Shown here: one piece after another, positions 1,256 through 11,065 of the stretch
Layout: each line of letters starts with the position of its first letter
Position numbering within the stretch: the stretch's first letter is position 1
Source of the DNA: Desulfobacula sp.
GTDB lineage: Bacteria > Desulfobacterota > Desulfobacteria > Desulfobacterales > Desulfobacteraceae
Reading direction: 5' to 3'
Assembly (NCBI GenBank): GCA_023139225.1
Contig: JAGLNZ010000175.1
Coordinates: forward strand, 1 to 14,894
Length of the DNA: 14,894 nt
Made by a program: the position numbers and the translations under genes
The notes under the pieces: model-generated
Seen by the model: the letters and a program-made list of their open reading frames with translations, nothing else
The model's database searches: none
What the model was told of the DNA's origin: nothing

Positions 1256-2146
1256 TTAAATAATGGAATACGGTTTGGTTTTCCAACGGTTGTGGACCCA
1301 GAAATACTGTTCCGGGCATTGTCTGACTATTGACTCAATTGCAGATACATAATTTTGGGTATTATTTTCAATATCCTTTATGGGGCAGCCTGTGGTCTGC
1401 AAGGCAACTTCAGGTAAAAATTGCATAATGTATTTCTCGTTTTTCTTTACCATAAACATAGGAACCACGGGGGTTCCTGATCTTAACACAAGCTTTGCCA
1501 AACTATTTTTAGTACAGGCGGGTCTGCCAAAAAAATTGGTAACCACACCATTATACCAGCCTGCATTCTGATCAAACAGTGTACCAACAATACCGCCATT
1601 TTTTAAAATCGTGTCTATTTTTTTTGTTGCTCCCCCTGTATGAATCATTCTAGCCCCAAACCGTTGCCGCATTTCCAGCATCAAACGCTCCAATGGTTTA
1701 AAATCAAATTTTCGATAAATTCCATATGGTTTTTCCATACCGGCTTTTGGGAAGGATGCAACAAGAAGTTCAAAATTCCCCATATGACAGCTTAAAATAA
1801 TAACACCCCTGCCTTTTTTTTGGGCCTTTTCCAAATGTCTGAAACCTTTAACCGAAAAATATTTAAATAATTCATCCTTGGATTTTGGATATGCCCAGAT
1901 GACCTCAAAAAGGATGCTTGCAGTATTCTTAAAAACATTCTTTGCAAATCTTTGAGCCTGTTGTGGAGAAAATTTGTTTGGAAAAGATAAATTAATATTT
2001 TCAAGAGCAATATTTCTGTGGCGCTTATCCAGCTTATACCAGATAAGTCCCAATAAATCTGAAAAAAACTTTAAGGTTTGTCTTGGCAGCATTCCCATTA
2101 AAGTTATTATCAGCTTTATTAACCTGTATATCCTCTCATCATTCAT
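1256..2146 (-). CDS. LpxL/HtrB-family lipid A biosynthesis acyltransferase
   Basis: This 296-residue protein belongs to the LpxL/LpxM (HtrB/MsbB) lysophospholipid acyltransferase family, which adds a secondary acyl chain to Kdo-lipid IVA at the inner membrane using acyl-ACP. Seen: the catalytic HX4E motif HMGNFE with H121 and E126, preceded by GRGVIILSC; a conserved DQNAG at 192-196; and FFGRPA at 205-210. The N-terminal segment around residues 7-38 is hydrophobic and fits the usual membrane anchor. Length is normal (E. coli LpxL has 306). It starts with an ATG that overlaps the lpxK stop as ATGA (4 bp), so the two are probably translationally coupled. Which acyl position or chain length it serves (LpxL or LpxM type) cannot be read from sequence, so no symbol is given. 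Confidence 0.93.
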   Translation of the reverse strand: MNDERIYRLIKLIITLMGMLPRQTLKFFSDLLGLIWYKLDKRHRNIALENINLSFPNKFSPQQAQRFAKNVFKNTASILFEVIWAYPKSKDELFKYFSVKGFRHLEKAQKKGRGVIILSCHMGNFELLVASFPKAGMEKPYGIYRKFDFKPLERLMLEMRQRFGARMIHTGGATKKIDTILKNGGIVGTLFDQNAGWYNGVVTNFFGRPACTKNSLAKLVLRSGTPVVPMFMVKKNEKYIMQFLPEVALQTTGCPIKDIENNTQNYVSAIESIVRQCPEQYFWVHNRWKTKPYSII

Positions 2147-3273
2147 TGCTTTTCCAGTCTTGAATTTAAAAAATCTTTAAACTTTTCTGGCTGTTCAAAC
2201 TCTATTTGGATACCGATCACGACTAAATTCATTGCCCATTTTATATCCGGGTCAAGTTTTGCCCAGTCCTTTTCCGTAGTCAGGAGAACATCAGCACAAA
2301 CTTTTTTAGCCATGTTGTTTATCTCAAAAACATCAGAACTTTTATACCTGTAATGATCTTTGAATTCAAGATGATGCAGGACATTAATATTTAATTTAAT
2401 TGCCGAGTGATAAAAAGATTTATTATTTGCTATTCCTGAAAAAAGGACTGCTTTTTTCCCAATCAGACTATCTATGTCTATGGTATTTTCTTTTAAATTT
2501 TTGCTGCCAGCTATCTGTTGACAAACAAATGGCTGGTGAAATGTTTTAAACCAGGGGCGATCAGGATAAAGACTTAGTACCTCTTTGCTACCCTCCATAT
2601 TTGTATTTTTATCCGGACTTCTTGTAAAAACAATTGCATCTGCTCTTTGGTTGGAACAAAGAGGTGTTTCTCTCAATCGGCCGGCAGGAAGAGCTCTTTT
2701 GTTGCCCAAAGGATTGGAATAATCAAACAGGAGAATATCAAGATCTCTTTTAAGCTTCAAATGTTGAAATCCGTCATCAAGTACAATCACATCAGGTTTG
2801 AATGCATCAATTGCCTTCATGCCCGCCTTGAACCTGTCTTTACCGACAACCACAGGGAAAGATCTTCTTTTGGCCATCATATATGGCTCATCCCCCGAGT
2901 CTCTGGCATCTGAAAAAATCCGGTCACCATCTGAAACAATTAGTGAATCCGCCTTGGACTTACCTTTATACCCTCTGCTGATAACAACCGGCTTTTTCCC
3001 CATTTCCTTTAAAAAGTCGACCAAATAAATGGCCATGGGTGTTTTGCCTGCTCCCCCGACTACTATATTCCCAATGGAAATAACAAAACAAGGCAGGTTT
3101 TTTTGTTTTAAAATCCCTTTCTTATATAACCTGATCCGAAACCCGGCACCAAGACCATATAGATATGAAATCCCAACCAAAAACCATTCAAAGGACAACA
3201 CCCCGGGCTTAAAATTGGTGCCTGAAATATATGTCACCCTTTCTTCTATTCTATTTAACCATTTTTTAAACAA
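2143..3273 (-). CDS. lpxK: LpxK tetraacyldisaccharide 4'-kinase (TTG start preferred)
   Basis: LpxK phosphorylates the 4' position of the tetraacyldisaccharide to give lipid IVA, at the inner membrane, using ATP. Seen, numbering from the TTG at 3273: P-loop GGAGKTP at 73-79, ISRGYKG at 98-104, DSGDEP at 125-130 and DDGFQH at 166-171, all LpxK hallmarks. The open frame extends upstream to a GTG at 3399, but those 42 codons lie inside waaA in another frame and have no family resemblance. From the TTG the protein is 376 residues, near family size, begins FKKWLNRIEERV as relatives do, has GGAG 10 nt upstream and overlaps waaA by only 8 bp. An ATG at 3339 would overlap waaA by 74 bp with no Shine-Dalgarno. 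The function is secure; the exact start is inferred. Confidence 0.94.
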   Translation of the reverse strand: MFKKWLNRIEERVTYISGTNFKPGVLSFEWFLVGISYLYGLGAGFRIRLYKKGILKQKNLPCFVISIGNIVVGGAGKTPMAIYLVDFLKEMGKKPVVISRGYKGKSKADSLIVSDGDRIFSDARDSGDEPYMMAKRRSFPVVVGKDRFKAGMKAIDAFKPDVIVLDDGFQHLKLKRDLDILLFDYSNPLGNKRALPAGRLRETPLCSNQRADAIVFTRSPDKNTNMEGSKEVLSLYPDRPWFKTFHQPFVCQQIAGSKNLKENTIDIDSLIGKKAVLFSGIANNKSFYHSAIKLNINVLHHLEFKDHYRYKSSDVFEINNMAKKVCADVLLTTEKDWAKLDPDIKWAMNLVVIGIQIEFEQPEKFKDFLNSRLEKQ

Positions 3274-4564
3274 TATGAAGAAGCTCCATATTCTCAATAA
3301 TTCTTTGTACGGCACCGGAATTGTTTGAAAAAACCTCATAACTTCGGCTGCCCATACGCTTTTGTACCTGCCTGTTTTCCAATATGGTTTCCAGTTCACT
3401 TATCAGTTCTTTTTCAGATTCAACCTTTTTTGCACCCCCATTATCCATGAGCATTTCTGCAATCAGCATAAAATCAGACATATCAGCTCCGAAAAGAATC
3501 GGTTTTGAAAATACAGCCGGTTCCAAAGGATTATGTCCTCCCTGTTTTACAATTGATCCCCCGATAAATGCCACGTCACATATGGCATACAGTCTTGAAA
3601 GCTCTCCCATTTTATCCACCAGAATAACCTTTTGGCACTCTTGGGATTTGCCCATTTCCGACAGGAGTACCGCATGAACATCATGGGATAATAGATAGGA
3701 CAATATTACCCCGCTTCTTTTGGGATCTCTCGGGGCAAGGATCATTATTAAACCCGGAAATTTCTTTTTTAGTTTTTTATATACGTCACAAAGAATGGTT
3801 TCTTCCCCTTCATGGGTGCTTCCGGCAATAAATACCTTGCTTTCCTTTTCAAAACCAAGCTGATCTCTTATACTGTCAACACGAGTTTTATCCAGATCTT
3901 GGCGGGGTTGGTCAAACTTGATATTTCCTGCAACAAATATTTTCTTTTCATCAATACCTAAGCGTTGAAACCGTTCTTTATCTAATGAGGTTTGTGCCAT
4001 AATCTGCGTTAAAAAAGAAAAAAACATTAAAGAAAACTTTTTAAAAACAAGATACCCATTTAAAGAACGCTTAGAAAGTCTCGCATTAATTAAAATTACC
4101 GGAATTTGCTTTTTCTTCATCTCATATAAAAAATTGGGCCACAAGTCTGTTTCAATTATGACAACAGCATCCGGTTTTATCAATCCGCTTATTTTTTTAA
4201 CACTATATCCCAGATCAAACGGGAAATATCCCAATTGATCAGCCAGGGCGGTATTTTCTCTTAATAACAATTGATCTGCCATATCAAAGCCTGTCTTTGT
4301 TGAAGTGGTAAAAATAATTCCCACGTCTTTGTGTCGGTCTTTTAAAGCCTTGACAAATGGTATGGCCGATTTTACTTCCCCCACGGAAAGCGCATGTACC
4401 CAGATTCTTATTTCTCCTGCCTGTTTAGGGTTTAACCCGGTCTTAAACCCTAAGCGCAAGGCTAAGGTGGCCCGTCTTTTTTCTGAAAACAAATAAATAA
4501 ACGGCAAAAGCGGGAGAACAATAATAAATAAAATGTTAATTACTATTTTATAAAAAAAAATCAT
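3266..4564 (-). CDS. waaA: WaaA (KdtA) Kdo transferase
   Basis: WaaA transfers one or more Kdo sugars from CMP-Kdo to lipid IVA on the cytoplasmic face of the inner membrane (GT30). Length 432, normal. Seen: a single N-terminal membrane segment at about residues 4-26; IWVHALSVGEVKSA at 54-67 with E63 as the probable catalytic base; IIETDLWPN at 136-144; AGNIKFD at 212-218; AGSTHEGEE at 247-255; and GGSIVKQGGHNPLEPA at 335-350, the nucleotide-binding loop. The start is ATG at 4564, 24 nt after lptG; no strong Shine-Dalgarno is visible, so read-through coupling is likely. Whether it adds one, two or more Kdo residues cannot be told from sequence. Confidence 0.96.
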   Translation of the reverse strand: MIFFYKIVINILFIIVLPLLPFIYLFSEKRRATLALRLGFKTGLNPKQAGEIRIWVHALSVGEVKSAIPFVKALKDRHKDVGIIFTTSTKTGFDMADQLLLRENTALADQLGYFPFDLGYSVKKISGLIKPDAVVIIETDLWPNFLYEMKKKQIPVILINARLSKRSLNGYLVFKKFSLMFFSFLTQIMAQTSLDKERFQRLGIDEKKIFVAGNIKFDQPRQDLDKTRVDSIRDQLGFEKESKVFIAGSTHEGEETILCDVYKKLKKKFPGLIMILAPRDPKRSGVILSYLLSHDVHAVLLSEMGKSQECQKVILVDKMGELSRLYAICDVAFIGGSIVKQGGHNPLEPAVFSKPILFGADMSDFMLIAEMLMDNGGAKKVESEKELISELETILENRQVQKRMGSRSYEVFSNNSGAVQRIIENMELLHIV

Positions 4565-4588
4565 TTGATCTGGTTTTCATCATTATTA

Positions 4589-5665
4589 TTATTCCGTATT
4601 GATCAGATATAGTATCCCCACACCCAAAAAAAATATATTGGCTGCCCAGGCGCTGATGATTGGCGGTAAAATGAGTCCATACCCCATAGAAATACAGAAC
4701 CCATACATGATCTTGTAAATAAATGCGATAAAAACGCCTAGGGCAATGCCCACAGGAATATTTCCTTTAACAAAGGGTCTCATTCCCGTGGCAGCACCTA
4801 TCAGAACCATAATAATACAAATAAAAGGAAATGCGATTTTCCCATTCAAATCTACTTTATAAGTTGTCGCATTATACCCTTCTTTTTCAATTTTTTTGAC
4901 AAATTTTCTTAATTCAAAAAAACTCATCTCCTCGGATTTTTTTGTAACCTCACCAAGATCTTCCGGTTTAAATGTCAGGAGAATAGTCTTTTTATCATAT
5001 AGTTTTACATCATAATCCACTGAATCCTTTTCATGGACCTGCTCAATAACATCTTCAAAAATCCATTTTCCCTGGGCAAAATATCCTTTTTGTGCATCAA
5101 TCCTGGACTCAAGAGCAAAATTTTTACTTAAAGTCGTAATGGTGACCCCGGCAACAGATTGTTGAGCAGGATCGTAAAAATTGATATGTATCAATCTATC
5201 TTCAGACTTTATCCAGATATCCTTCCTGGCAGAAGAAATTTTTTGACTTCTTGGTATCACATTATACTTTATGTGGTATACCCTGGCCATGGTAATTGGA
5301 ATAATGGTTTCCCCTAAAAAAAACATGAGCATGGCAAGAGTCACACTAACTATAATTGCCGGCTTTACAAGAAAATATATACTGATACCACTTGACCTGA
5401 TGGCCAAAAGCTCGTTATTTCTATTCATCAAACCAAAAACCGTAATCGTTGCCAGCAGAATACTTGCCGGTGTCAATTGCACAAACATGAAAGGGACTTT
5501 CAACAGAACATACCCCAAGGCACTGATCAGGGAAATATCAGAATATAAAAATCTATCCATTCTGGAGAGATAATCAATAAACACGAACAGTACCAGGATC
5601 ATCAATTGAATGATGCAAAAAAACCTAGCAAATTCCTTTAACCAGTATTTATGCAGGCATGACAT
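4589..5665 (-). CDS. lptG: LptG, LPS export permease
   Basis: This is the second YjgP/YjgQ-family permease of the pair. With LptF and the ATPase LptB (not in this window) it forms the LptB2FG transporter, which pulls LPS out of the inner membrane and feeds it to LptC and LptA. Seen: 358 residues with three N-terminal membrane segments (about 13-33, 48-80 and 97-120), a periplasmic beta-rich part from about 130 to 265, and three C-terminal segments (about 273-290, 300-322 and 330-355). NRNNELLAIRSSGIS at 81-95 is the cytoplasmic coupling-helix signature. It starts 3 nt after lptF with AAGGTG about 6 nt before the ATG. F/G assignment rests on order and similarity; the two paralogues are related. 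Confidence 0.92.
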   Translation of the reverse strand: MSCLHKYWLKEFARFFCIIQLMILVLFVFIDYLSRMDRFLYSDISLISALGYVLLKVPFMFVQLTPASILLATITVFGLMNRNNELLAIRSSGISIYFLVKPAIIVSVTLAMLMFFLGETIIPITMARVYHIKYNVIPRSQKISSARKDIWIKSEDRLIHINFYDPAQQSVAGVTITTLSKNFALESRIDAQKGYFAQGKWIFEDVIEQVHEKDSVDYDVKLYDKKTILLTFKPEDLGEVTKKSEEMSFFELRKFVKKIEKEGYNATTYKVDLNGKIAFPFICIIMVLIGAATGMRPFVKGNIPVGIALGVFIAFIYKIMYGFCISMGYGLILPPIISAWAANIFFLGVGILYLINTE

Positions 5666-5668
5666 ATT

Positions 5669-6850
5669 TCACACCTTTTTTATAACCAATTTTTTTGCGG
5701 CCATTACAGCATTTTTCACAAAACCGGGAAGCCGGACCGGTTTTTCCTTTGCATTCCTGACAAGAAGAAAAATACCGGCTCCCCCCATGATGACATTTGG
5801 CAGCCACATCCCGATGACAGGAGATAATTTGCCTGTTTCTCCGGCTGACCACCCGGCAGCAAGAAGAAAATAGTAGAAAAGAAAAAAACAAATCCCAAGA
5901 CTGAATCCTGAAGAGCGCCGTAGAGAATCTGATTGAACACCCAGGGGGAATGCAAGCAGACCTAAAGAAAGACAGGCAAAAGGAATTGAAAACTTCTCAT
6001 GCAATTCCATTAACGCTGAACTCAAAAGCGCCTTGTTCTTAATACCTGATCGGATAAACCGTATCAGATCAACCAGGCTTCTCTCATTCAGCTTCTTTGA
6101 TATTTCATCATCTGTTTTATTCATGCTGTTCAAATCAATATTAATATCATAATCTCTAAATTTAATATTATTCACAGAACCTTGATCAACATCCACCTGA
6201 TTAATCACTCCATCATAGAGTCGTATGGTATACATCTTTGCATCTTCAAGCCGAAGCAATTTTCCCGAAGGGGCTACGGAAATGCTGATGACACCTTTTG
6301 TTCTCCTGTCTTCGATAAAGACATCCTTCAGCGCTTTTGTTTTCATATCCAAATGAGAGATATAAATCATAACATTTTCAAGGCCGCAATTAAACTGGCG
6401 TTCCTGAAGCGCCATATCCAGGCTTGATCTTGCAATCTCAATACTTAATTTTTTAAAGGATAATTTCCCCCAGGAAACACCGAAAACTGTGATCCACATG
6501 GTCATCAAAACGCCTAAAAAACAAAAAATCATTACCGGCGGCAACAGTCGGTAAAGAGAGACCCCGGCACCCTTTAAAGCAACAATCTCATTGTCTTGTG
6601 ACATGCGCATAAACGTCAAAAGTATGGATATCATAACAGACATGGGAATGGTGAATTCAAAAAATCTTGGTAACGTATAAACAACCATAAGGGCAATAGA
6701 TGAAATATCAGCATTATAGTTTACCACCATATTGGTGATTTCAGGTATCCGTGTCATTAAAAAAACAAATGTCAGAAAAAACAGGCTGATAGTAAAGGGA
6801 GGCAAAAGTTCCCTGAAAATATATCTGTTTATAATATTAAAATCTTTCAT
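5669..6850 (-). CDS. lptF: LptF, LPS export permease
   Basis: First gene of the operon and first YjgP/YjgQ permease; partner of the downstream LptG in the LptB2FG transporter. Seen: INRYIFRELLPPF at 7-19, the usual LptF opening; membrane segments at about 17-35, 52-80 and 101-127; the coupling-helix motif DNEIVALKGAGVS at 86-98; a periplasmic beta-rich domain to about 290 and three C-terminal segments. The 393 residues are slightly longer than E. coli LptF (366) because of a basic C-terminal tail ending AAKKLVIKKV. The ATG at 6850 lies only 8 nt after a candidate -10 box, so the transcript may have almost no leader; GGGG lies immediately before it, too near for a normal ribosome-binding site. 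Confidence 0.93.
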   Translation of the reverse strand: MKDFNIINRYIFRELLPPFTISLFFLTFVFLMTRIPEITNMVVNYNADISSIALMVVYTLPRFFEFTIPMSVMISILLTFMRMSQDNEIVALKGAGVSLYRLLPPVMIFCFLGVLMTMWITVFGVSWGKLSFKKLSIEIARSSLDMALQERQFNCGLENVMIYISHLDMKTKALKDVFIEDRRTKGVISISVAPSGKLLRLEDAKMYTIRLYDGVINQVDVDQGSVNNIKFRDYDINIDLNSMNKTDDEISKKLNERSLVDLIRFIRSGIKNKALLSSALMELHEKFSIPFACLSLGLLAFPLGVQSDSLRRSSGFSLGICFFLFYYFLLAAGWSAGETGKLSPVIGMWLPNVIMGGAGIFLLVRNAKEKPVRLPGFVKNAVMAAKKLVIKKV

Positions 6851-6858
6851 TTCCCCGG

Positions 6859-6887
6859 AAAATATAAGGTAGCGGGCAAATAGTCAA
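6859..6887 (-). promoter_or_regulatory. sigma70-like promoter for the lptF-to-glycosyltransferase operon
   Basis: On the minus strand TTGACT (6887-6882) is followed after 17 nt by TATTTT (6864-6859). A TATATT with a 15-nt spacer overlaps it. The predicted transcription start falls about 2 nt before the lptF ATG, giving a leaderless or almost leaderless mRNA. The 56-bp gap also has to serve the divergent thiN gene, for which I see only a weak GATAAT (6893-6898) without a good -35. Confidence 0.45.
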
Positions 6888-6945
6888 GATTTGATAATAA
6901 GATTACATGTTTTCATGCATTGATTTTCATGATAATAAATTGCCT

Positions 6946-7581
6946 ATGAAATGTGTGATAATAGCCAGTGGCGACCTTGAATATACCAATAACATTATAA
7001 AAATTATCAAGGACACCCAACTGATCATATGTGCTGACGGCGGTGCCAGGCACTTAAGAGCATTAGATATTTTACCCCATGTAATGATCGGTGATTTTGA
7101 TTCCATCGCCCCGGATGACAAGCTTTATTTTAAAAAAAACAAGGTAAAAACAATCACCTTTCCCTCGAAAAAAAACCAAACTGATTCAGAACTTTGTGTA
7201 TCATGGGCGCTTGAAAACAATGCAACTGATATCACACTATTAGGTGTCACCGGCACCAGGCTGGATCACACCCTGGCCAATATTTTTCTTTTAAAAAAAC
7301 TTGCCGGGCTTCAAATCCCGGCAAGAATTATAAATAAAAACAATGAAATTCATATTGTCACAAATTTTATCAAGCTGAAAGGTCGGCCCAAAGACTTGTT
7401 ATCCATTATTCCTGTTACACAAAAAGTTACGGGGGTCACGCTTAAAGGACTTGAATATCCCCTGGAGAATGCAACCTTAAAAATGGGATCATCTCTTGGT
7501 ATCAGCAATTCTTTTAAAGGCAATTATGCATGTGTTTCTCTTGAAAAAGGTATTTTGATCGTAACAAAATCAAAAGATTAA
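6946..7581 (+). CDS. thiN: Thiamine pyrophosphokinase
   Basis: Converts thiamine to thiamine diphosphate with ATP in the cytoplasm. Seen, numbering from the ATG at 6946: ADGGA at 30-34 and GDFDS at 49-53 (pyrophosphate and metal binding), KNQTD at 76-80, and GVTGTRLDHTLAN at 100-112; the C-terminal part is beta-rich as in the thiamine-binding domain. With this start it is 211 residues, usual for bacterial ThiN. An in-frame ATG at 6907 would add 13 residues with no family resemblance; neither has a clear Shine-Dalgarno, and the 6946 start is chosen because the family begins directly with the MKxVIIASG strand. It stands alone, divergent from lptF and converging on the lipoprotein gene with a 2-nt gap. 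No thiamine synthesis gene or TPP riboswitch is nearby. Confidence 0.93.
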   Translation: MKCVIIASGDLEYTNNIIKIIKDTQLIICADGGARHLRALDILPHVMIGDFDSIAPDDKLYFKKNKVKTITFPSKKNQTDSELCVSWALENNATDITLLGVTGTRLDHTLANIFLLKKLAGLQIPARIINKNNEIHIVTNFIKLKGRPKDLLSIIPVTQKVTGVTLKGLEYPLENATLKMGSSLGISNSFKGNYACVSLEKGILIVTKSKD

Positions 7582-7596
7582 TCTTATTTTGATTTT
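7566..7596. terminator. AT-only palindrome over two convergent stop codons (possible weak bidirectional terminator)
   Basis: AAAATCAAAA (7566-7575) pairs with TTTTGATTTT (7587-7596), and the inner part AGATTAATCT is itself palindromic. Both stop codons, thiN TAA and the lipoprotein TAA, lie inside it. The stem is almost free of G/C, so it would be a weak intrinsic terminator, but it is the only dyad between the two convergent genes. Confidence 0.3.
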
Positions 7597-8426
7597 TCTT
7601 CCCCTTCTTCACCCTCCCCGGGAGCAGGCTCTTCTATCATGGTATGTTCTATTATAAATTCTTCCACCTTATCAATCTCGGCTGCAACAATGACATGTTC
7701 AATTGCAACCTCTTTAATAAAACCTTCCATATACGGATTTAAAACATCAACAAGTTTGGCGCTCTGCTTTTTAATTTTATTAAAATCTTTTACATCATTG
7801 AATACAAGAGAGCTTAAAAAAATAATGGCTGCCTCACGGGCTTTGGGATGCAGGGGGGGAATTTGCTGGTCAGGCATCAACTCTTTAAGCACCAGATTCA
7901 TGTTCAGACATAAATACCGGTCTTTATCATTTGACCTGTTTTTATTTAAATTGACGGCAATCGGCCCCATGGGCACGATTGGGGAAAGGTCCACCTCGGA
8001 CTCTGCAGCTTTCTTAGTTTTCGTCTGTTTCCAAACAATAATTCGACCGGATTCATTTTTCAGCTGCATGATAGTTTCAGTCAGCTCTACAATATCAAAA
8101 AAGCTGGTGGAATTTTTTTCCCAGATCTCTTCAATATCCGATTCTGTAACGGTGAAAATCATCTGGCCTTTTTCAATATGCCATGTTCCTTTTGCGTTCC
8201 CCTTGGATTTAACGATTTTTGAGGTCGCATCAGCAATTCTGACTGAAGAATTCCATTCTCCTTTAGGATTGGTGACTAAAAGGATATAGGCCCTGTTTCT
8301 AAATTGCATCCAGTTCCCTACAGCGAATTCATTCTGGGTTTTCTCTTGTTCTCCGCAACCGGAAATGGAAACCAAACAAGAGACACCAATCAAAAACAAA
8401 ATAAAATAAACAGCAAATCTTTTCAT
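7584..8426 (-). CDS. Lipoprotein with FliL-like C-terminal domain
   Basis: The 280-residue protein has a lipoprotein signal peptide: KR, a hydrophobic stretch to about residue 20, and lipobox ISGC with C24 as the lipidated residue. Residues 34-133 look like a small beta-barrel (GNWMQFRNRAYILL, GTWHIEKGQMIFTV, VWKQTK), similar in style to lipocalin-like stress/cost domains. Residues 148-250 resemble FliL, the flagellar stator-associated protein: PMGPIAVNLNKN, then DRYLCLNMNLVL, a helix with REAAIIFLSSLVFNDV, and a final VAIEHVIVA strand. The tail from 265 is very acidic. FliL normally has one membrane helix, not a lipid anchor, and no flagellar gene is nearby. RBS AGGA lies 7 nt before the ATG. 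The domain reading is by eye; the cellular role is unknown. Confidence 0.85.
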   Translation of the reverse strand: MKRFAVYFILFLIGVSCLVSISGCGEQEKTQNEFAVGNWMQFRNRAYILLVTNPKGEWNSSVRIADATSKIVKSKGNAKGTWHIEKGQMIFTVTESDIEEIWEKNSTSFFDIVELTETIMQLKNESGRIIVWKQTKTKKAAESEVDLSPIVPMGPIAVNLNKNRSNDKDRYLCLNMNLVLKELMPDQQIPPLHPKAREAAIIFLSSLVFNDVKDFNKIKKQSAKLVDVLNPYMEGFIKEVAIEHVIVAAEIDKVEEFIIEHTMIEEPAPGEGEEGEEKSK

Positions 8427-8465
8427 GATGGAATCCTGACAAATTGAGTTCTAACCATTTTTTTA

Positions 8466-8494
8466 ACGCTACCATGATGAAGAATCATGGTCAA
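8466..8494 (-). promoter_or_regulatory. Promoter of the lipoprotein gene with a dyad in its spacer
   Basis: TTGACC (8494-8489) and TAGCGT (8471-8466) are separated by 17 nt on the minus strand. The -35 is good; the -10 keeps only the T-A-----T positions. The spacer is filled by the inverted repeat ACCATGAT-N5-ATCATGGT (8471-8491), which contains CATG-N9-CATG. A protein bound there would block or activate the promoter. The predicted leader is about 33 nt. Confidence 0.45.
8471..8491. repeat. Inverted repeat, candidate operator
   Basis: Perfect 8-bp arms, ACCATGAT at 8471-8478 and ATCATGGT at 8484-8491, with a 5-nt centre. It sits in the 152-bp gap between divergent genes and overlaps the spacer of the lipoprotein promoter. 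A related dyad lies before the selenoprotein gene at 9851-9867. No T-run follows, so it is not a terminator. Confidence 0.5.
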
Positions 8495-8578
8495 CCCACG
8501 CCCGGGTGTTTATTTCTCACTGTTATATTTTTCCCATTCGGGATATAAAGAGCATAACTTTAATAATAAGGAATAATT

Positions 8579-9409
8579 ATGCTCATAAATACATTTATTC
8601 ATATCCCGGGAATCGGCCCTGCAACAGAAAAAAAAATATGGCAGTCCAATATATTAAGCTGGAAGGATGATAATAATTTTTCATCATCAGGCCTGTCTGC
8701 CTCAAAGATAGAAAACATAAAAATATTCACAGAACAATCAAATAAACATCTTGAAAATAACAACCCTAACTTCTTTGAAGCCTTACTGCCATCAAATCAG
8801 CATTTCAGACTATTTCCCGAGTTTAGACATTCCTGCGCCTATCTTGACATTGAGACAACCGGCCTTGACGCATCCTGCCAGATTACCACCATTGCCCTGT
8901 ACAACGGCAGGGATATAAAATATTTTATTCAGGGAAAAAATCTTGACGCGTTCTTAGATGAAATTCAAAAATACAGCGTCCTTATCACATACAATGGCAG
9001 AAGCTTTGATATTCCCTTTATTGAAGAATACTTCAACGTAAAATTGCCCCATAGTCAGATTGATCTGAGGTATATCTTAAAAAATCTGGGGTTCAAGGGC
9101 GGTTTAAAAAAATGTGAGAAAGCATTGGGCCTTGACAGAGAAGAGCTGGACGGTGTTGACGGATACTTTGCCATACTCTTATGGAATGAGTATAGACGCA
9201 ACAAGAATCAAAAAGCGCTTGAAACACTATTGGCTTATAACATTGAAGATGTGATCAATCTTGAAACGCTTATGATTAAAGCCTATAATTTAAACATCAG
9301 AAAAACACAATTTTTTGAAACCCATAAAATAGCAGAACCTCCAAAGCAAAAAAATCCTTTGAAGGCTGATCTGAAAACCATTGAAATGTTAAAGCACCGA
9401 TACTATTAA
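8579..9409 (+). CDS. YprB-type RNase H-like 3'-5' exonuclease family protein
   Basis: The 276 residues carry a ribonuclease-H-like exonuclease fold of the YprB type (RNase_H_2). Seen: ExoI motif YLDIETTGL with D90 and E92; ExoII motif TYNGRSFDIPF with D144; HSQIDLR at 158-164; and ExoIII motif AYNIEDVINLE with Y220 and D224. So the DEDDy metal-binding set looks complete and the enzyme should be active on DNA or RNA. The first 30 residues, FIHIPGIGPATEKKIW, look like a helix-hairpin-helix nucleic-acid-binding motif. ATG at 8579 has AAGGAAT 4 nt upstream. The gene is monocistronic: divergent from the lipoprotein gene and ended by a strong hairpin. Substrate unknown. Confidence 0.88.
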   Translation: MLINTFIHIPGIGPATEKKIWQSNILSWKDDNNFSSSGLSASKIENIKIFTEQSNKHLENNNPNFFEALLPSNQHFRLFPEFRHSCAYLDIETTGLDASCQITTIALYNGRDIKYFIQGKNLDAFLDEIQKYSVLITYNGRSFDIPFIEEYFNVKLPHSQIDLRYILKNLGFKGGLKKCEKALGLDREELDGVDGYFAILLWNEYRRNKNQKALETLLAYNIEDVINLETLMIKAYNLNIRKTQFFETHKIAEPPKQKNPLKADLKTIEMLKHRYY

Positions 9410-9450
9410 AAGACAAGGTGTTCAAAATGAGTGAACACCTTGTCTTTTAA
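9406..9450. terminator. Strong bidirectional terminator hairpin
   Basis: A perfect 19-bp stem: left arm 9406-9424, right arm 9432-9450, 7-nt loop (AAATGAG). Stem ends are A/T-rich, so each strand ends in a short U-run (TTTT), with GACAAGGTGTTCA as the GC-bearing core. It lies between the convergent exonuclease and selenoprotein genes, and the exonuclease TAA stop (9407-9409) is inside the stem foot. Confidence 0.85.
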
Positions 9451-9465
9451 AAAAAACTAAAACTA

Positions 9466-9783
9466 TTAATCTCCGCAGGTACCGCCGGAGCCGCAACTTG
9501 AACATCCGGATTGTCCCAGGTCAATATTGGAGTCAAGATGGAATCCCATCCCGGTAAAATCGATTCTAATATTTTCGGCTTTTTCCATAAAATCTTTATC
9601 AACAACAAATTTCAGGCCTTTAACATCAAATGCATCATCTGTATCTTTTGGCTCGTCCAGAGCCATGGCAAGTGAAGGGCCGCCTCAGCCGCCTGAATTG
9701 AGAAAAATTCTGATGGGGGTGGGCTCCTTACCCTGGAAATAGTCATTGATCTGCACTTTTGCAGGATCTGTCAACTCAATCAT
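9466..9783 (-). CDS. HesB/IscA-like selenoprotein with UGA-encoded Sec33
   Basis: Reading through one TGA (9687-9685) gives a 105-residue protein of the A-type iron-sulfur carrier (HesB/IscA) fold. Order: ATG at 9783 with AAGGAG 8 nt upstream; PIRIFLNSGG, then U33, then GGPSLAMALDEP; VKGLKFVVDKDFME; and a C-terminal SGCSSCGSGGTCGD with C94, C97 and C103. U33 falls where IscA has its first cluster-ligand cysteine (SGCSG). The segment after the TGA keeps the family pattern without a break, so the TGA is not a real stop. A SECIS-like hairpin lies 20-36 nt after it. HesB-like selenoproteins are known in deltaproteobacteria; the Sec machinery is not in this window. Automated calling would give a 66-residue ORF starting at 9666, inside the SECIS. 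A sequencing error of a Cys codon is the main alternative. Confidence 0.9.
9649..9665 (-). promoter_or_regulatory. Candidate bacterial SECIS element
   Basis: On the mRNA, UGGCUC pairs perfectly with GAGCCA around a 5-nt loop UGGAC. The loop begins 26 nt after the UGA and has G as its second base. Bacterial SECIS elements are small stem-loops soon after the UGA with a G near the start of the apical loop, and this one fits. It lies wholly inside the coding region, over codons for MALDEP. Confidence 0.72.
9685..9687 (-). other. In-frame UGA read as selenocysteine (Sec33)
   Basis: The TGA sits in the glycine-rich motif GGUGGP at the position of the conserved first cysteine of the HesB/IscA fold. 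Homology continues in the same frame on both sides, and the SECIS-like hairpin follows at the expected distance. Confidence 0.85.
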
Positions 9784-9814
9784 TGTAAAACTCTCCTTAT
9801 TCGTTTATTAATTT

Positions 9815-9842: not shown

Positions 9843-9871
9843 ATTCTAATCATGCACTTGTTGCATGTCAA
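9843..9871 (-). promoter_or_regulatory. Near-consensus sigma70 promoter of the selenoprotein gene
   Basis: TTGACA (9871-9866, perfect -35) and TAGAAT (9848-9843) with an ideal 17-nt spacer on the minus strand. The predicted start is near 9836, giving a leader of about 53 nt that holds the strong AAGGAG site. The spacer contains the dyad CATGCA-N5-TGCATG, so the promoter is probably regulated. Confidence 0.7.
9851..9867. repeat. Inverted repeat, candidate operator in the selenoprotein promoter
   Basis: CATGCA (9851-9856) and TGCATG (9862-9867), 5-nt centre, lie between -35 and -10 and touch the -35. This is the same CATG-N9-CATG layout as the dyad at 8471-8491. Confidence 0.5.
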
Positions 9872-10000: not shown

Positions 10001-11065
10001 ATGAAACTGTCTGTCCCATTTATACCAGATAAAGAATACACAAATTTTTTAAAAAATAAAACCCTGAATATAGAATCAATCTATTTTTCACTTCATTCAG
10101 GTCCGGTACTCGATTCCAGAATGAGATTCAAAAAAGTTGATTTCACTGAGCTTTCAGAGGGGCTGCAACAATTTAAGCATGTTAAAAAATATAGTTTATT
10201 GAACTCCCGGTTTCTCAATCCAGACCTCTATTCTGACACTAAATTTTTAAATCAAACCCTGGATAAACTTGAATTTTTAGTCGCTCATTCAAATATCACC
10301 GGGATTGTTTTTTCCGATGCCTATTTCCTGACCGCCATGGCGGCCACAAAAAGAGATGTTATTTCCTGCCTTGAAGCGGTGCCGGGTATTAACTGCATGA
10401 TTGATTCTTCACAAAAAGCGTTTTCATTTTTTGATATGATTGAACAAACCGGCTTTAAATTACCGGGAAAAATAGTCCTTGACCGATCCTTAAACAGAAA
10501 CATGAACCAGCTTAAAAAAACGGGCGATGAAATTAAACAGCAGTATAACCATATAAAAATTGAACTGCTTGCCAATGAAGGCTGTATTTATCACTGTCCT
10601 TTTAAATTGGCCCATGACGCTCAAATCTCGTTTTCAAACTTAAGAATTACAACAGATAAAACCTTTCAGACAAACCGCTCCTTTGGCTGTCATGCCTATT
10701 TTTTTAAAACACCTGAAAAATTTTTTAAATCTCCGTTTATCCGTCCGGAAGACATGGATAAGTATACGAGAATAGCAGACACCATTAAACTTTGCGGAAG
10801 GACCCTGGGGTCAAATTTTCTTTTCAATTGCATCAGCGCCTATATTGAAAAATCCTATAAAGGAAATCTTTTTAACCTTATGGATGCCACCCACTGGTTA
10901 TCGGAGATATGGCATATTGAGAATAAAAGGCTTGATCCCGGCTTTTTTAACGTAATAACAGGCTGTACAAAAGATTGCAAAAATTGTAGCATATGCAGTG
11001 ATTTGTTTTTAAAAACAGCAACAAAGCAACCTTTGAAGATTAAAAAGTATAAGGACTGTCTATGA
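10001..11065 (+). CDS. U32-peptidase-family-like protein with two cysteine sets
   Basis: A 354-residue soluble protein resembling the U32 'collagenase-like peptidase' superfamily, whose studied members (UbiU/UbiV, RlhA, TrhP) are mostly Fe-S proteins acting in hydroxylation. Seen: [17 protein letters not shown] at 190-206, the U32-like signature; [10 protein letters not shown] at 246-255; and KLCGRTLG at 263-270. C195, C199, C230 and C265 could form the usual [4Fe-4S] site. A second set, C322, C326, C329 and C332 (CX3CX2CX2C), sits near the C-terminus and could bind another cluster or zinc. There is no good ribosome-binding site before the ATG. Its TGA overlaps the galE ATG by 4 bp. Its reaction is unknown; family assignment is by motif only. 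Confidence 0.78.

Follow-up and report, generated by a model that had tools for sequence, protein, structure and literature searches.

A HesB-like selenoprotein gene in a Desulfobacula contig and its apparent place among the A-type carriers of Desulfobacterales

IscA, SufA and ErpA are A-type carriers containing the Pfam domain PF01521. A-type carriers are predicted to hold and transfer iron or iron–sulfur (Fe–S) clusters through three cysteine (Cys) residues (PMC8593673). A survey based on PF01521 reported them absent from many Delta-Proteobacteria (Vinella et al. 2009, PMC2682760). PMC1794560, PMC9312934 and PMC13188914 all list HesB-like selenoproteins, the first with members from Desulfovibrio (Desulfovibrio vulgaris among them), Geobacter sulfurreducens and Syntrophobacter. 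Mutagenesis and 75Se labelling identified the M. maripaludis member, whose function was described as not clear (PMC11097638); in PMC2933860 the function is marked unknown, and Fe–S assembly carries a question mark. Here, we analyzed such a gene in a 14,894-base contig of Desulfobacula sp. (assembly GCA_023139225.1, contig JAGLNZ010000175.1), referred to as a whole as the window. An initial annotation made from the sequence alone had proposed selenocysteine (Sec) in a HesB/IscA-like protein and had held that the function of such Sec forms is not established, in agreement with PMC11097638 and PMC2933860. Among papers that connect selenocysteine or selenoproteins to HesB, IscA or A-type carriers, no title or abstract opening treated a HesB-like protein as the carrier of anaerobes; this was judged mostly from listings and is not proof of absence.

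The window gene is an unexceptional member of NF038090 (IscA_HesB_Se, NCBIfam), a selenoprotein family already known. Comparison across loci strongly supported Sec decoding of its TGA codon, and the product is very probably a real selenium-containing IscA-like protein. The gene itself was expected; the part worth following is an apparent replacement of ordinary A-type carriers. The main features are as follows.

9466..9783, minus strand: gene for the hesB-like selenoprotein, with 105 codons, a TAA stop and Sec (TGA) as codon 33; the full-length read-through matches NF038090 and PF01521
9685..9687, minus strand: in-frame TGA decoded as Sec (residue 33), opposite Cys35 of E. coli IscA in the alignment
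9650..9664, minus strand: hairpin GGCUC-UGGAC-GAGCC with a 5-nucleotide (nt) loop, resembling a selenocysteine insertion sequence (SECIS) and beginning 20 nt downstream of the TGA; complete in 67 of 71 TGA-type and 0 of 28 Cys-type genes
9466..9504, minus strand: Gly/Ser/Cys tail with three Cys (C94, C97, C103), plus the stop; all 77 aligned rows keep these three Cys

The coordinates in the initial annotation were correct, and the strand, which it left unstated, was minus. Translation from 9783 to 9466 gave 105 residues with a single U, within NSGGUGGPS, followed by the TAA stop. The TGA was thus located, as had been claimed, in the GGUGGP motif where IscA has its first cluster Cys. A plus-strand reading of 9466..9783 was rejected, as it contained three TGAs. 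In the hesB frame, the plain open reading frame list showed a 66-residue part only. The full-length protein scored 114 bits against NF038090 (profile positions 1–101 of 101, cut-off 85), whereas the 66-residue part alone scored 60.9 bits. Against PF01521, the full length scored 32.4 (cut-off 26.3, U read as C), and the 66-residue part matched no Pfam family at E 1. Homology therefore continued through the TGA, and the true gene has 105 codons rather than 66, both as the initial annotation had argued. Its proposed check of homologues also held: residue 33 was U or C in all 16 rows of alignment A1.

The window protein shares with NF038090 a Sec or Cys at GG[U/C]xGP and a Cys-rich tail, and no feature setting it apart from that family was found here. 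It resembles the HesB-like selenoprotein of surveys (TIGR01911, HesB_rel_seleno; PMC1794560, PMC13188914), listed for Deltaproteobacteria and methanogens, in its A-type domain and UxGP motif. It differs in scoring 34.4 bits against TIGR01911, under the cut-off of 66.35, which places it in a sister subfamily. Both the PF01521 domain and a predicted IscA fold were found, consistent with the A-type carrier superfamily, and the best fold matches were IscA-like proteins. IscA, SufA and ErpA share this fold and the place of the first cluster Cys. The window family differs from them in having Sec for that Cys and three or four tail Cys that are mostly not CGC (three or four Cys in 70 of 71 TGA forms; no CGC in 67 of 71). 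In addition, the window protein scored only 14.8 to 30 bits against the equivalog models of these carriers, far under their cut-offs of 65 to 181. Its putative ligand set would be U33 and the three tail Cys, and Sec at that site might, as the initial annotation proposed, alter cluster affinity or redox behaviour.

The RNA hairpin is the strongest evidence for Sec, and it was absent from the initial annotation. We scanned 95 loci for a TGA or Cys codon followed by xGP and obtained 71 distinct TGA rows, including the window gene, and 24 Cys rows. A false row in L059 was removed, L066 was a duplicate of L025, and no row came from L069, L095, L113 and L115. Four Cys copies missed by the pattern (L072, L073, L081 and L113) were added later, with stem pairs counted by hand from the bases; L095, a TGA match in the phylum search, and L115 remained without a row. 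The tail of L116 is odd, probably through an assembly frameshift; L116 was kept in the row, hairpin and tail-Cys counts and omitted from the tree.

The hairpin consensus was GGCUC-UGGAY-GAGCC, beginning 20 nt past the TGA. The five-pair stem was complete in 67 of 71 TGA rows and in none of the 28 Cys-type genes. In the TGA rows, the hairpin codons were nearly fixed: Ala was GCT in 71/71, Leu was CTG in 71/71, and Glu was GAG in 69/71. At the same sites the 24 Cys rows had GCT in 9, CTG in 7 and GAG in 12, and their stems had at most three pairs; the added copies had 4 (L072), 4 (L073), 2 (L081) and 2 (L113) of five. The nearby codons of the invariant Gly, Pro and Leu (codons 2, 3 and 5 past the TGA) varied freely in the same TGA rows. 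The mean energy of the 22-nt element was −9.1 kcal/mol in TGA rows versus −1.7 in Cys rows. The p-values (down to 1e-13) overstate the effect, as the rows are related; the synonymous-site contrast is plain without them. Bacterial SECIS loops follow a rule of a G in the first two loop positions. The window hairpin lies just past the UGA, as a bacterial SECIS does, and its UGGAC loop was judged to fit this rule. The window gave no match to Rfam at gathering score, so the SECIS evidence rests on the comparison of hairpins across loci. Folded by itself, the 71-nt stretch of the window was unremarkable (z −1.44).

These data bear on the possibility that the TGA is a true stop, either in a broken gene or as a sequencing error for TGC or TGT. 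In favor of a true stop, SelB was not found and the genome is fragmented into 752 contigs. A single TGA at one codon in 71 distinct genes, 67 with a complete hairpin, is hard to reconcile with this, and the clade of 15 genus genes that holds the window gene is entirely TGA-type. We consider a true stop very improbable.

Components of Sec decoding were also searched for in the genome, as the initial annotation had advised. A tRNA-Sec (73.2 bits, above cut-off; above cut-off in 5 of 14 control genomes), SelA (599 bits) and SelD (364 bits) were present, and selB was not found in the assembly, though present in most of the genus. The selD gene had one in-frame TGA of its own (L013, G000:C231:5537-6460), and it is probably also a Sec gene.

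Public entries raise a different possibility, that the TGA is read as Trp under genetic code 4. Database relatives were classified by the pattern at the Sec site for 120 listed of 231. Among these 120, 37 were short, 31 had Trp at the site, 41 had Cys, and 11 were left unclassified by the pattern. The Trp entries would favor a Trp reading, and we infer that they reflect genes called with code 4. Among 101 loci searched, none had a Trp codon at the site, where Cys codons do occur; three of 14 window genes checked use TGA as a normal stop; and tRNA-Sec, SelA and the hairpin are all present. A Trp reading is thus exceedingly improbable. Among the relatives listed, 35 of the 37 short ones began with MALD, the first start past the TGA, which bears out the earlier prediction that gene callers would truncate this gene. 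Truncation of selenoproteins by gene callers is noted as a general problem in the review PMC13188914. Public protein sets (P0003–P0024, those aligned, and others) also hold the window family with Trp at the Sec site.

We then consider what the Sec protein would do. We lean, with modest confidence, towards a 105-residue IscA/HesB selenoprotein that binds iron or an Fe–S cluster and hands it on. SelB bound to the hairpin 20 nt past the UGA would deliver Sec at residue 33, and the product is predicted to fold as IscA. The iron or cluster would most likely be held by the U33 selenolate and Cys of the flexible tail, in the way that A-type carriers are predicted to hold and pass on clusters with three Cys (PMC8593673). 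It would then be passed to target proteins in place of ordinary A-type carriers. If the Sec protein does carry clusters, it would be a natural selenolate-ligated Fe–S carrier open to study in tractable anaerobes.

The distribution of the families is consistent with such a replacement. In a six-frame search, NF038090 matched at E ≤ 0.001 in 212 of 242 genomes of the order (136 of 147 of good quality), 206 of them above cut-off. At least 136 rows had exactly one TGA (136 among the 150 rows listed, by hand count). It matched in 220 of 395 phylum genomes, 168 above cut-off, and in 16 of 19 genus genomes, with 16 rows containing a TGA and 3 without. A contig scan with Cys fixed at the site gave 17 Cys forms and is uninformative on Sec numbers. 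In contrast to this spread, a six-frame search with PF01521 matched in 1 of 19 genus genomes, at the locus of a Cys member of the NF038090 family, and in 7 of 242 order genomes, all weakly (at most 35 bits) and 4 of the 7 with a TGA. As for other Fe–S machinery, SUFBD_core was found in none of the 19 genus genomes, NifU_N in 17. In the controls, PF01521, SUFBD_core and NifU_N were found in 9, 14 and 12 of 14 genomes, respectively. The NF038090 control matched at E ≤ 0.001 in 8 of 14 genomes, all 8 below cut-off, whereas 19 of 19 genus rows were above it. The search can therefore see more distant carriers, which speaks against a general failure.

Ordinary A-type carriers thus seem to be lacking in this order, and the HesB-like Sec protein looks like the main A-type-like protein in this group of sulfate reducers. 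The reported Deltaproteobacterial absence of A-type carriers may be partly an annotation artefact that hides a Sec-type relative. A wider proposal, which we hold tentatively and at somewhat below an even chance, is that Desulfobacterales and their relatives rely mainly or solely on the Sec form (or its Cys copies) as their A-type Fe–S carrier, with a selenolate cluster ligand. The Sec form would have been missed in Fe–S surveys since gene callers break the gene and PF01521 misses the pieces, and the Sec and Cys copies that stand in tandem in some lineages would, on this view, form a selenium-dependent pair.

A TGA copy stood beside a stop-free copy in 11 genomes (G231, G163, G371, G423, G343, G271, G463, G632, G524, G543 and G601). 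The second copy was a Cys form in all eight that were read (G231, G343, G463, G524, G632, G271, G371 and G423). Adjacent TGA and Cys copies were located at L025, L072, L073, L074, L081, L092, L096 and L097, and the hairpin of the Cys copy was incomplete in 8/8. This arrangement fits a selenium-dependent pair. A tree of 94 rows indicated at least seven changes between Sec and Cys; its resolution was poor, with 34 of 91 inner branches open, and the direction of the changes is not firm.

Several observations weigh against the carrier reading or parts of it. The Sec is supported by comparative evidence, and the bound cluster is hypothetical. No SelB above cut-off was found in this 77%-complete assembly. 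SelB was above cut-off in 17 of 19 genus genomes, the exceptions being the window genome and a 68%-complete one. Six genus genomes (G237, G244, G246, G247, G248 and G254) have selB and hesB on one contig, about 17–25 kb apart. Gene-by-gene comparison of the window with G237 and G247 showed thiN, lptF, lptG, kdtA, lpxK and lpxL in one shared order after hesB, on the side where selB lies in those two genomes. The window is the whole contig and ends about 1.3 kb past lpxL, before the place of selB in these genus-mates; the contig end is therefore the best explanation for the missing selB. The contrast in hairpins falls short of absolute, as the Cys genes L072 and L073 retain four of five pairs. 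These hairpins look like SECIS remnants, which PMC1794560 describes in Cys forms, one of them HesB-like.

The absences of PF01521 may be partly false negatives of limited sensitivity. The window protein passes PF01521 with U read as C, yet the six-frame search missed it. Synechococcus elongatus has PF01521 proteins, and the PF01521 control gave no match in it. NF038090 had no match in 30 of 242 order genomes. Of the 11 genus genomes of good quality, G253 (92% complete, 4% contaminated) also had none. The predicted local distance difference test score (pLDDT) of the tail, the putative source of the Cys ligands, is about 45 in the model, and the Cys spacing of the tail is unlike the usual CGC. 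No conserved neighbor hints at Fe–S assembly: outside the genus, the only window gene besides hesB to recur was one with a FliL domain (at 6 of the 30 short-flanked loci from the order), and ten flanking genes at five other loci (four Cys-type, one TGA-type) had nothing obvious in common. The archaeal HesB-like protein presumably belongs to the TIGR01911 side. Its disruption mutant is reported to fix nitrogen still (PMC11097638, citing unpublished work), so a general need for the protein is not shown.

The same tail could serve another chemistry. The selenoprotein might be a thiol/selenol redox protein or switch, forming a selenenylsulfide between U33 and a tail Cys, with metal binding secondary. 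The three or four tail Cys could reach U33, and the review PMC13188914 regards most uncharacterised prokaryotic selenoproteins as likely redox-functional. That review lists the motif as UxGP, not as UxxC or CxxU, and the top fold matches are IscA-like; we consider a redox role rather unlikely. Less likely again is a protein whose Sec and Cys carry sulfur or selenium in a persulfide-like relay, or a role in sulfur metabolism like that of the IscA-like DsrR from Allochromatium vinosum (2k4z). DsrR is not known to have the cluster Cys, whereas the window family keeps U/C33 and the tail Cys. Moreover, none of the ten scanned window genes resembled a dsr gene. The carrier reading remained the one we prefer.

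The flanks of hesB contained the following signals.

9793..9798, minus strand: AAGGAG ribosome-binding site, from the sequence
9843..9871, minus strand: promoter-like TTGACA-17-TAGAAT, 11 of 12 consensus matches, consensus only
9408..9448, no strand: inverted repeat of 17 bp separating the ends of hesB and a convergent gene with an RNase_H_2 domain, z −7.75

The AAGGAG site claimed earlier was located at 9798–9793. The near-consensus promoter claimed with it matched at 9871–9843. The scan found four promoter-like sites versus 2.6 expected from shuffles, and this one stood out by score alone, so its assignment to hesB is suggestive only. The hesB-like gene appears to stand alone. The consensus scan of the window listed no terminator; the inverted repeat is a probable two-way terminator common to hesB and the RNase_H_2-domain gene. 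The syntenic block hesB-thiN-lptF-lptG-kdtA-lpxK-lpxL spans 1256–9783 of the window (L121, L122). Positions 10001–11065 encode a protein of 354 residues whose C-terminal end has a Cys cluster; it matched no Pfam family at E 0.001, and its relatives adjoin hesB in nine genus loci.
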